64,000 nucleotides of DNA, taken from assembly GCA_002104935.1 (NCBI GenBank), contig MCGT01000003.1, positions 744,001-808,000 of the forward strand, given 5' to 3'. The notes beneath the pieces were generated by a model. It searched no databases, had not been told where the DNA came from, and saw only the letters and a program-made list of their open reading frames with translations. The number at the start of each line of letters is the position of its first letter. The first letter of the stretch is position 1. This stretch comes from Hesseltinella vesiculosa. Its lineage: Eukaryota > Mucoromycota > Mucoromycetes > Mucorales > Cunninghamellaceae. Below are positions 1,919 through 6,995 of the stretch, one piece after another. The position numbers and the translations under genes are program-made.

Positions 1919-1997
1919 TATGCAAAGAGTGAAAGCTAGCTTGAAACGAGAGAAAAATATGCAAAGAGTGAAAGCTAGCTTGAAACGAGAGAAAAAA
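1919..1997. repeat. 39-bp tandem duplication downstream of the Fanzor gene
   Basis: Two adjacent copies of a 39-bp unit start at about 1919 and 1958. The core ATGCAAAGAGTGAAAGCTAG occurs at 1920 and 1959, and each unit ends in an A-run. The copies look identical apart from the final A-tract length. The repeat lies between the stop of the Fanzor gene (2170) and the start of the POLR2M-like gene (1857). It is therefore in the 3' region of the former and the promoter of the latter. It is not a CRISPR array because there are no spacers. Confidence 0.9.
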
Positions 1998-2169
1998 AAA
2001 TTGTTGCCTGTCTTCCACTATGGAAAAAAAGAAAACTCCGTTACCAATCAGAACGTGTGTTAAGTGTTGGCTAAAAGCACCAGTTACTGGATAAAAGCAT
2101 TAAACACGTTCTTGCCAGAGCAGACGGTAACCCCTTTTGCAGGGTTGCTTTGGTGAATAAATATGAAAA

Positions 2170-5100
2170 CTAAGCGGTAGGAGAGGTTGGAGGGTGTCGG
2201 CGTGGGCAAAAGGCCAGGGGGCGTTGCTTGTGTTGGAAAAAGTGTTGACCAATGGACACCATATTGCAGGCCGCCATGACATCCCGGTCAAAGATGACCG
2301 CACAGGAGCTGCAGCGCAGAAGTCCATAAATCTTGCCACCATTCACGACTGGGTTTTTGGTTGGGCCATGGCAGATAGAGCAGAGCTGCATTGAAGAAAA
2401 AGAATGAGCCACCTCGTTGCTGACATGCTTTTTTTTTTTTACCCACCTTGCTTGTTTTGAACTCATTCAGTGAGATAACAGCAAGCTTGCCCTGTCGTTG
2501 TCGGTTTTCCAATTGGTCAAACACCAGGGAAGACGAGCCAGGAAGTTGCTTTTTGAGCGGGGCGGCGACCTTCCGGCCCTTGAGGCCATCACCAAAGAGT
2601 ATTAATGGAACTCTTTCGCTGGGAAACTTTGTCACACCGTGACGAATGCGTGTGTTTGGCTTCATTTGCGGTGCAGGTCTACAATGGAAAAATAAGCCCA
2701 CCTGGACCTCCTGAATACTACGACAACTTGCCTCTTTTCTTCCATTTCATTGATCAGATCAATGCGGTGGTCACGGTCGAGGTCGCGTTGGGTGCGCATG
2801 GTATGTAATGTTGCTTCCCATAGATCCATCGCCCCAGGTAGCATCGAGCCAGCAGAGTATTTTAACAGATTTTCGGTCTTCACGATAGAAACATCCAGCG
2901 CGGCAAGGTGTTCCACCATCGCCTTCTTGGCCATGCTGATCTTGAAGGCCTTTTTCTTCCGAGCTTTCTTCTGACGCTTGCGCCGATTGCGGTGGGTACG
3001 TTTGCGGTGGCCACGCACATTGCGCTGGGACTTGACATACTTCTTGGACAGTCCAGCAAGAACACTGGCAACGTATGCGACACCCCGCTGGTGCTCTCTG
3101 TAAGCATTGAAGCGGTCGATGGAATGCTGAAGGCCGTAAAAGTCGAAGAAGAGCGGGAGACGATCGAGCAGGTATTGGATTCGGATGGCATATTCGGAGG
3201 CGCTGGTGCTTCGGTGGGAAGGGATGGCAGCCTCCAGCTGATGGAACGGTAATTGCTGACCTCGGAGAGAGTATGTCGTGGAAACCTTGCGTCGTTCCAA
3301 TTGTTGGATTCGTCGCTGCGTTCCACATTGCGAGCGGTATTCCTTTGCAGAAACTTTGATGACTCGGTAAGGCAGATGGTGAGACTGGGGGATCGGGGTG
3401 GTAGGATCGGCATCGTCAATCATAGGCATTGAGAGATTTCCTTGTTCCATATCAGTGCTGCCAGTGGCGTTGTCAAAGTCCTGATGTTGATGTGCAGGCT
3501 GAGCAGTACGAATAGGACATGGGGTGTCGATAGCCATTTGTTCTTCGTCATTATCGTTATCGGGTTCACCTTCACCTGCAGAGTCTTCGTCATCCCGGGT
3601 TTCAGGGAGCATAGAAAGTGGATAAGGGGTGCCATAGCTTCCGGTGACGATGGCACGGCGGCCTGGATCGACGGCGACCATGTCGAAGCGATCGACCAGT
3701 TCGGTATCCCAGTGGTCCAGGCTGGGCAGCTTCATCGTTGGGCGATGCGTGGTTGGCAAACGAATAAATTCAAAGCAGCACGAAACGCCATCACACCAAA
3801 TGTGGCAAGCAAACAGTGGACGGTTGTATAGTATACCCTCAAGCATGTCCTGGACACTAGGTGAGAAGAACAAGAAAAAAGTTGGAAGTTGTTTTTTTTT
3901 TTTTTTTTTGGTGTCTGCAAAACTTGCCTCCCGTACCCAGGGCCGCCAAAGTTGAACTTCTCCATGTGGAACACCTTGAAAAACATGGGCAAGGCACGGA
4001 TGAATGCGGCGTCGGGTTCACCAGCCATATCATTGTTACTTGCTTCACCACCAGCGGTAGCCACAGCGTGACCAGGAGCATCGCATTCGGCTAGGTATTT
4101 GATCGTGTCGGGTAGGATGGGGATGAATCGGCGTCCAAAGTGGGGCTCAGGAAGGATGGTAAGCTTTGGGCATTTTTTGGGGTTAGCATTGGGCTGGGAC
4201 TTGTACTGCTCGTATTGCTTGTTGATGTTGGTGTAGACAAGCAAGGCACTGCTAGGATTTCGGGACAGAGTTGTTGATGTCAATTTACCAACGTAGTGGG
4301 GTTTCAAGGCCAGTGTTTTCGCCTTCACATCGGCAATCGCCGCTTCTTCGGCAGACACGCCAGGGACACTGTTTGTGGCCGATCCAGATGTGACCCCTGA
4401 TTGAGGGTGGGAGGGTCTTTCTGCGAAGTTTGTGTAGATGTCATCCACCTGCTGGTCAATATGAGGGATCTGAAAGAGACAAAAAAAAGTCAGAACACAT
4501 TCCCTTTTTTGGTACCGCCCTTTTAAAAAACTTACTTGGACATCCGTGATGGCAAAGGAGAATCGAATAAACTTCTTGACCTTTTTCTCAAAGTCGATCA
4601 CCAAGCAATTGGAGTAAGCGGTGGCAAGCGTTGACAAACATGGCCCAAAAGTACCTCCATAGAATTTATGCGGGTGATGGAAGTGAAGGCTGCGGTCATC
4701 AGCAGGAATGAGTAGGGCTGCATTGTCGAGCGGATTCATGCCGTGGTGGTCGTTAGGGTTGTACACGATGTTTGGGTGGTCGCGGACAAACTGGTTCCAG
4801 TAAGGCAGAAAGGTGGGAGGAAGGCTTCGCAGGATGTGAGCGTTGGTGATCCCCGGTCGCCGCGGGTTACGGGGATAGATGAGCTGCGAGATGGACAGGA
4901 GACCGTTCTGGCTGATCATGATGCTTTTAAAGTCAGACGGGTGAGTGAGAGCGAAATGGTTGATAAACAATTGGAGGCGGAAAAGGATGTTCTTGTTGCA
5001 GGCGCTGGTCGATTCTATGTTGCGCTTCAAAGCGAGCTTGAAAGGCTGCTGGACGGCATCTTCAAAGCTTTTTTTTATCGTGTAGCGCTCACCACCTGGC

Positions 5101-5513
5101 ATCATTTCGTTGATGTAATCCTTCTTGTTCATGCGATGGTAAGGACAGAGACGGCTGGCAGACGAACAGTGTCCCATTTGGCCGCATGTGGCACACGGTC
5201 CCACAGCATCAGGATTTCGCTCATCTTCTTGGCGCTGCCGTCTCCCCTCGGCGCGATCGTTTTGTTCCTGTTGTTGGGCACGTCGTTGTGGCGTGGGCCC
5301 AGTTTCCCGTCCTACGAAGATGGGTACAGAAAAAGACATGATTGAAGTGATGGATGACTTACGTTTGCGATAGACTTTTGCTTGTGACCAAACAGTGTAG
5401 AATTGTTCGGTGGTCATCCAAGCTTGGCCCAACTGATCAGGCAACGCCCGGCGGAAATCTTCTTCAGGGATGTGGCACAGAGTTACGTAGACGGATTGAA
5501 GAAGCGATTGCAT
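2170..5513 (-). CDS. Fanzor-family RNA-guided DNA endonuclease (eukaryotic TnpB homolog)
   Basis: Six exons close in phase: 5513-5363, 5311-4536, 4469-3928, 3856-2732, 2678-2447 and 2385-2170, giving 1013 residues. Residues 90-106 form a CCHC-like knuckle (C90, C93, H98, C106) after a basic, Gln-rich stretch. The RuvC-I motif is VAVDPGRR (Asp553). A Lys/Arg-rich block follows at about 700-730, then LILFGDG (894-896). Next come LNEFKTSK (Glu937), a zinc ribbon C944-x2-C947...C967-x2-C970, and RuvC-III DRDVMAACNM (Asp977). This order, with the Glu just before the zinc ribbon instead of the TnpB RuvC-II position, is the known Fanzor arrangement. Fanzors are guided by an omega RNA usually overlapping the gene's 3' end; no such RNA can be proved here. 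Introns 3 and 4 fit GC-AG donors (AG|GCAAGT). Intron 3 could instead use GT at 3936, which keeps phase and costs three residues. The gene looks intact. Nuclease activity is inferred from the family. Confidence 0.88.
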
Positions 5514-6995
5514 CAGGGAAAGATAGAAATTGAGCAGAAATAAAGAAAAAGATAGAAGAGCCTAGATAAACAAACAAACAAAAAGAATCGCGTGTTGCGG
5601 AAGATCAAACCAATGTCATGCCAGTGAGCATGACCGCCAATCACATCCTTAGCCCTTTTTTTACTACGTACCTTTCTTTTTGAAATATAAAATGAAGTAG
5701 CGTACCATCAATGATAAAGGTAGCACTCTTTGCCTATCTCTATTGCTCATTTTACTGTGCTTCTTAAATAAAAACTTAACACTGCCTGGCAAACCAAACC
5801 ACGAAAAAAAAAAATTCAGGCCCCAGAGTCATCCTCAGTTAAACAAAAATGCTCCAGATTGGAGAAGTTGCGACTATCCATATCATTCTGTCTATTGCAT
5901 GCCTCTCCCTATGCCTTACCATGCTTGGTCTATAAATCCAAGGTGGTAAAAATAACATGCTTTGCAGAAAGATGCGACAAATTCTTTTCTGCAAGCGGAT
6001 CATGTTAGTGCGCTTAGTAGCGCATATGCAGCTGGCTATTTGATTGGTTGCGCTGTTTTTTTCTTCTCAAATTTTCCATAGTGCTTCAGCAGCGAACATT
6101 AAAAAAACCTGACCAATCAGCATGTTCAGTTTGCTGCGACTTTTTGCAGAATATTGCAGCAGGAGGACGTTTCCTCCTCTAGCTCGTCATCCTAACATCC
6201 CATCGTTCTTTATCTTTGACCATGTATACCTGACACTATAGCAACCAAACGAACCGACAGATACCTTGAAAATGGACTTCTGTTCCTGTTGCGTGCAAGC
6301 ACGAAGACGACCAGTGTATGACGAGTCAGCCTGATACTTCCGACGCCTTCGTTGGGTCATCTCGCCCTGCAAAGCTTACCGATCTCCCGACAAACGCCAC
6401 TAGATTCCCCTAAATATGTTGTACTGCTTACCGGTAATGTGCCCACCATAACACCACCACCCCACGTCCGACGGTTCACCATCCACTATCGGTCCAGAGC
6501 TGTTTGAACCTGGTAGCCATGATATCCACACTATGGTTACGATCGCCCCAAATGAAGAAGACACAGGCAGCAATGTCACCTCTACCACAAACACAATTTG
6601 ACAACCGCGTAGTTGCATTCTTTTTTGTTCTGGGACTTGTTCCTTCCCATGGGCACTTGATCTACAGCTTTTTGTCTTTGCCTTCCAACGACCAGAGATT
6701 TCCAACTATCTGTGTAAAGGTACATAGAAGCCTCACTTACGACCCACATCATTAATATCTACGAAGCTGCAAGGACACCAGCGTCAAACGCAAGGATGCT
6801 GCGCGAAAATTCGTCCTTTTCAAAATTCAAGAGGCCGCATTTCGGCGCGATTTGTTTATTTGTTCTAGAGCTTGGTTGACAACCCATTTCAGCAGCACGC
6901 AATCGTGCGAAAAACAGAGCAAGGGTATGATGAAGAAACAGCAAAGAAGTATGGTATGAAAAAAAATCGAGAAAAATGAGGATGGAGGACAATGG
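5514..6995. other. 1.5-kb stretch without a resolved gene
   Basis: This lies between the Fanzor start and the SAC3 stop. It is AT-rich near the Fanzor gene and more balanced from 6190 to 6760. On the minus strand, a short ATG ORF at 6650 (MGRNKSQNKK...) and open stretches down to 6187, including an Arg-rich segment ending near 6190, are separated by GTAAGC-like donors at about 6430 and 6380. No combination closed in phase with a recognisable protein. On the plus strand, 6504-6755 is open but unconvincing. It may hold a small unrecognised or decayed gene, plus the promoter of the Fanzor gene. Confidence 0.4.

Follow-up and report, generated by a model that had tools for sequence, protein, structure and literature searches.

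The window analysed here, meaning the whole 64,000-nucleotide stretch, carries a spliced gene on its minus strand. Six predicted exons, joined with agreeing phases from position 5513 down to 2170, encode 1013 residues and a stop codon: exon 1 (5363..5513), exon 2 (4536..5311), exon 3 (3928..4469), exon 4 (2732..3856), which holds RuvC-I, an acidic insertion and a basic stretch, exon 5 (2447..2678), with an FGDG stretch and a displaced glutamate, and exon 6 (2170..2385), which includes a TNB zinc ribbon, RuvC-III and the stop. Introns 3 and 4, two of the five, have GC donors (GCAAGT), a detail absent from an earlier sequence-only reading of this DNA; the six-exon, 1013-residue model proposed there is reproduced, as is its statement that no stop or frameshift interrupts the gene, the window copy being one of 11 with open frames and usable splice sites among 21. 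Non-zero length differences between the window copy and 20 others are divisible by three in 14 of 22 cases for exons, in contrast to only 10 of 48 for introns (hand counts), which supports the exon-intron model.

The same reading had called this an intact gene for Fanzor, a eukaryotic relative of the CRISPR nucleases, with a displaced RuvC-II glutamate, which is borne out and can be stated more exactly as Fanzor1. Its three catalytic residues fall precisely where it had put them in the spliced protein and are invariant in five families of this genome: Asp553 of RuvC-I (minus-strand codon 3667..3669, in VAVDPGRR), Glu937 as the displaced RuvC-II residue (2462..2464, minus, in LNEFKTSK) and Asp977 of RuvC-III (2281..2283, minus, in FDRD). 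The C-x2-C...C-x2-C ribbon it described beside Glu937 is also in place (Cys944, Cys947, Cys967 and Cys970). DPG of RuvC-I (553-555) is invariant across the five families as well, and the alternative glutamate lies six residues ahead of the zinc-ribbon CxxC (E937-x6-C944-x2-C947); FGDG of the window protein sits where TnpB usually carries its RuvC-II glutamate. The displaced glutamate does not, however, by itself separate Fanzor from prokaryotic TnpB, as that reading had claimed, since the same DPG and alternative-glutamate arrangement is reported in a clade of IS607 TnpBs (PMC10711439).

Pfam finds a Cas12f1-like TNB domain (PF07282) in the window protein (35.2 bits, E = 1.4e-8, cut-off 26.3 bits), and all five families match it. 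The exon 6 frame alone does match Pfam, and neither the exon 4 frame nor the exon 1-3 frame does so alone. A profile search gave as best PDB match of a five-family profile (the window protein plus four families of the same genome, 26-45% identical to it) the Guillardia theta Fanzor1, GtFz1 (9cer, 9ces, 9cet), at 1.5e-5, a remote likeness all the same, followed by LaTranC at 0.0094. The GtFz1 match consists of three collinear segments with TDG, DPG and the E-x2-TS-x2-C region, whose E-values taken singly are 0.043, 69 and 25. The window sequence by itself matched only LaTranC in the PDB (0.0031) and only IS607 TnpB in NCBIfam (0.0042, 16.1 bits against a cut-off of 350). No PDB match was obtained with the exon 4 frame alone or with one divergent family, and the Parasitella parasitica Fanzor1, PpFz1, was not among the PDB matches of the window protein, the five-family profile or that divergent family. 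When a protein database was searched, 0 of 7998 scored candidates passed E 0.001 with the spliced window protein as query, and 0 of 8000 passed E 0.01 with the five-family alignment. The TDG motif, which belongs to the Fanzor1 WED domain (PMC10711439), reads CDG in the window copy; its counterparts in the four remaining families are SDG, TDG, TNG and TDG. On sequence grounds the window gene is a Fanzor1, because the best profile match is a Fanzor1 and the spliced gene has a eukaryotic, non-IS607 transposon setting; the assignment also draws on two motifs described in PMC10711439, DPG and the alternative glutamate.

At 1013 residues the protein is longer than most Fanzor1 proteins, which have 600-700 (PMC11423790). 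Near the N-terminus, residues 90-109 (5136..5195, minus strand) form a zinc-knuckle-like stretch, C-x2-C-x4-H-x7-C; in excerpts compared with Pfam zf-CCHC_6 (cut-off 22 bits), 43 residues from a related family, described below as family B, pass at 25.5 bits and the window excerpt fails at 13.5. Residues 566-650 in exon 4, following RuvC-I, make up an acidic insertion, about 85 residues long and containing proline, that is absent in two other families of the genome (F27 and F29). It is placed like the roughly 100 extra residues inserted into RuvC in PpFz1, likewise a fungal Fanzor1, where the insertion is a cyclophilin-binding FRI domain (PMC11423790). The third catalytic residue of GtFz1 is Asn (PMC11423790), in contrast to Asp977 in the window protein.

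The gene lies within a mobile element of 4,068 bp (2016..6083, minus strand). Its terminal inverted repeats are CACTATGGAAAA on the plus strand at the gene-3' side (2016..2027), where the end is exact, and its counterpart at the gene-5' side (6072..6083), which is often ragged in other copies. GAAG, in gene orientation, flanks the repeats on both sides as a target duplication (3' copy at 2012..2015, 5' copy at 6084..6087). The termini are of CACTA type, CACTATGG in the window's family, here family A, and CACTACGGG in family B. Because the element leaves just 154 bases of noncoding room on one side of the gene and 570 on the other, there is no space for a transposase gene. The 5' noncoding region (5514..6071, minus strand), presumably the promoter side, diverges from the window copy by 3.2%, vs. 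3.4-9.6% in the five introns, and is variable in 132 of 554 columns, slightly above exons.

Searched with the exon 4 reading frame, the Hesseltinella vesiculosa assembly (27.05 Mb, 85 contigs) gives at least 108 matches with an E-value of 0.001 or lower. Long exon 4 matches number 22 among the matches listed, the window's own counted, and the others are 86-99% identical. All 20 close copies fetched align across nearly all of the element, from 2009-2014 to 6044-6091, at 91-99% identity, and four older or internally deleted relatives (within L033-L037, with internal deletions in L033 and L036) were partly seen. The genome thus has some two dozen mobile copies that closely resemble one another, the window Fanzor among them. 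The sequence-only reading had treated 2170..5513 as a chromosomal gene that may be active or domesticated and had proposed a copy-number search. The gene stands, and those coordinates are its coding part; a solitary or domesticated state gives way, once copies are counted, to a mobile family with defined ends and many members, the element as a whole spanning 2016-6083. Purifying selection acts on the Fanzor protein: pN/pS pooled against the window copy is 0.30, an uncorrected value from 20 non-independent comparisons in which broken copies are counted, and together with the 11 open frames among 21 copies this argues for protein function.

Element edges were compared in the 23 copies of family A that have both ends, namely the 20 whole copies, the window and two read at their ends. 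GA directly follows the gene-3' end in 22 of them (GG in L015), and a few show single changes in the last repeat bases; the gene-5' end, unlike the exact 3' end, is often altered. A GGAAAA anchor near the 5' end is kept by 17 copies and missing from six. In 11 of the 17, GA stands exactly ten bases ahead of the anchor on the 5' side, vs. 0-2 copies at each of the other 14 of 15 offsets tested. The corresponding chance P of 5e-10 (at 1/16) flatters the pattern, which was first noticed by eye in these same, related copies. The base before the register GA is T or C in 11/11, and the full CACTAT is still present in nine of the 17 anchored copies. Since the 3'-end dinucleotide recurs on the 5' side, it is taken as target sequence, and we read pyrimidine-GA as the insertion motif and predicted TAM; in the window this would be TGA at 6086..6088 on the minus strand.

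An exact abutting repeat of at least four bases was found by script in 6 of the 23 copies, or seven with L014, whose repeat of about 12 bases was read by eye, vs. 12 of 506 mismatched pairs; an exact abutting target duplication is thus missing in 16 or 17. In L013 and L023, ten target bases stand in for GANN and the repeat's first six bases. L021, C46, L027 and L018 cannot be put down to plain duplication, because the register GA is present there and the bases after it differ from the 3' flank. In L011, L010, L018 and L027 the bases from GA to GGAAAA do not fit the consensus repeat, and they fit the 3' flank at best in part.

The 3' noncoding end (2016..2169, minus strand) is a candidate omega RNA scaffold, as suggested by its conservation and by blocks shared with family B: 27 of its 154 columns are variable among 21 copies, vs. 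96 of 299 in introns. The flank just beyond the duplicated GA (1994..2013, minus strand) is, from its position, the predicted guide. A precedent is a guide RNA that comes from the 3' repeat, its role given as unknown (PMC10432273). The window's 3' end folds no better than shuffled sequence (z = -0.89; 38 of 200 shuffles folded as well). RNAalifold on six family representatives gave -5.6 vs. -0.6 for column shuffles (sd 1.1), a control weakened by gaps. No Rfam family and no tRNA were found within the 64-kb window.

Family B comprises five copies, one of which was compared as protein and is 45% identical to the window protein. Its CACTACGGG-type ends are followed by CA after the 3' end in 5/5 copies and have GC before the 5' CA in 4/5 (by eye). 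Three of the five have abutting duplications of 3, 3 and 8 bases, the last in copy C66, which has lost 5' bases; in the remaining pair, CAACC and CAA are found again at a distance of two bases from the element (all by eye). Seven other CACTACGGG ends were fetched, of which four resemble the family B tail (one over 25 bases only); the remainder may be chance matches. Further tails, in L068, L070, L072 and L073, end in CCCGTAGTG, followed by CA in three of the four, which hints at additional families of the A/B type. The genome also holds at least three other Fanzor1 families (F39, F27 and F29, at L052-L055 and L061-L064), whose ends look, by eye, TA-flanked and CAGT-type, which suggests a different, Tc1/mariner-like carrier. 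The idea that the exact-3' pattern is common to all Fanzor families here was dropped on account of these three.

The window element belongs to a kind already known, given the Fanzor1 elements of PMC3627910 and the transposase-less Spu-1 of PMC10432273, and is probably best described as a Fanzor1-only, non-autonomous DNA transposon. The explanation that we favour, with somewhat better than even confidence, is that a transposase inserts such an element and that Fanzor with its omega RNA cuts empty sites, which are then refilled. The transposase, encoded elsewhere, would most likely insert the element at V-Y-GA-NN sites. The 3' end and the adjoining flank would be transcribed together as omega RNA, with the guide beginning just after the duplicated GA and GA closing the scaffold; as the inverted repeat and target duplication are predicted to lie inside the Fanzor1 guide-RNA scaffold (PMC10711439), pyrimidine-GA would be the TAM. 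Loaded with this RNA, Fanzor would recognise and cut the element-free site, in which pyrimidine-GA precedes the guide sequence, and the cut would be refilled by copying from the element-bearing chromosome. A filled site would escape cutting because G-GA, not Y-GA, precedes the guide sequence there, and the element would in this way spare itself. Homing of this kind was put forward for TnpB and has been brought up for Fanzor too (PMC10432273). The pyrimidine-GA motif could also reflect transposase preference alone.

A further reading, which we offer tentatively and think rather improbable, makes the spread both guide-registered and one-ended. The omega RNA end would be exact against TAM-derived bases and the other end loosely joined; the dinucleotide, GA or CA, would be the 3' part of the TAM, common to target and element, and the preceding base would tell an empty site (Y-GA) from a filled one (G-GA). 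Weak pattern searches of the genome did not find a transposase with matching ends. One pattern search returned 33 matches vs. 6 in its control (25 already known, 8 others), and another returned 37 vs. 62. Neither DNA nor pattern search found the shared 3' end outside Fanzor copies, as a MITE or partner element.

The ragged edges also admit one-ended copying, beginning at the precise gene-3' end, running to the 5' side and joined there by microhomology, which would leave truncated 5' ends and longer duplications and may itself depend on the Fanzor cut. In L013, L023 and L014, 5' loss goes together with target duplications 7, 9 and about 12 bases long, microhomology of 3-4 bases is seen in L013 and L009, and the 8-base duplication and 5' loss of C66 are of the same sort; Chlamydomonas Fanzor1 elements, too, are 3'-intact and 5'-truncated, with 7-19 bp duplications (PMC3627910). 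However, free truncation would not fix GA at ten bases from GGAAAA in 11 of 17 copies, and the full CACTAT survives in nine of them, so that we rate this rather unlikely. LINE-driven, RNA-mediated spread would likewise yield an exact 3' end, a variable 5' end and variable duplications, resembling target-primed reverse transcription, but the 3' end has no poly-A tail and all five introns are kept in 20/20 other copies, none of them intron-less. This intron retention refutes it for the copies aligned, and for the family it is very improbable.

An ordinary hitch-hiker, moved by a CACTA-like transposase with Fanzor taking no active role, is unlikely, even though the repeats start with CACTA, 3-bp duplications abut the element in two of the five family B copies and the CACTA transposase family PF02992 is matched at seven places in the genome. 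CACTA (EnSpm) transposons make 3-bp target duplications, whereas those of family A are of 4 bp or more, and the pN/pS value and open frames argue for protein function. The open frame and conserved catalytic residues would suit a domesticated host gene, but that reading, contradicted by the 23 copies with both ends, by divergent relatives in the same genome and by the target duplication of the window copy, is scarcely credible.

Among the systems described so far, Spu-1 (SpuFz1) of Spizellomyces punctatus is likewise a fungal Fanzor1-only element with inverted repeats and no transposase between them (PMC10432273). It occupies 42 loci, 19 of them full-length, has 134 ghost elements and is about 2.1 kb long, with one open frame (PMC10432273); the window element has 4.07 kb and five introns, and only a few internally deleted copies were seen in its genome. 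Fanzor1 elements have been described in Mucor, Rhizopus and Phycomyces (PMC3627910). CRe-1/2/3 of Chlamydomonas and MCi-2 of Mucor resemble family A in having target duplications, intact 3' ends and 5' ends that are truncated or fuzzy; however, the ends of the CRe families are shared with Helitron2, and no repeats can be recognised in MCi-2, in contrast to the CACTA-type inverted repeats and pyrimidine-GA motif of the window family (PMC3627910). In the mainly non-subscription Fanzor literature, family A, its CACTA-type ends and its pyrimidine-GA register were not met with in the accessible parts of PMC3627910, PMC10432273, PMC10711439 and PMC11423790. According to PMC10432273, it is unknown what Fanzor does for the element that carries it, and the element edges described here suggest how Fanzor elements choose landing sites, the ragged 5' ends being the likely footprint of the copying step. 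Because one genome holds two related multi-copy families with different end dinucleotides, and intact frames in family A, TAMs should be predictable from insertion sites.

Elsewhere in the window, the reading frames at positions 1-764, beside the element, contain several CCHC zinc knuckles as judged by eye and look like an ordinary neighbour gene. Just outside the element, within 6600-6860, lies a dispersed repeat some 180 bp long. The matches listed for it number 40 with its own, the remaining 39 being 75-82% identical, and two of them adjoin the Fanzor copy in L021.
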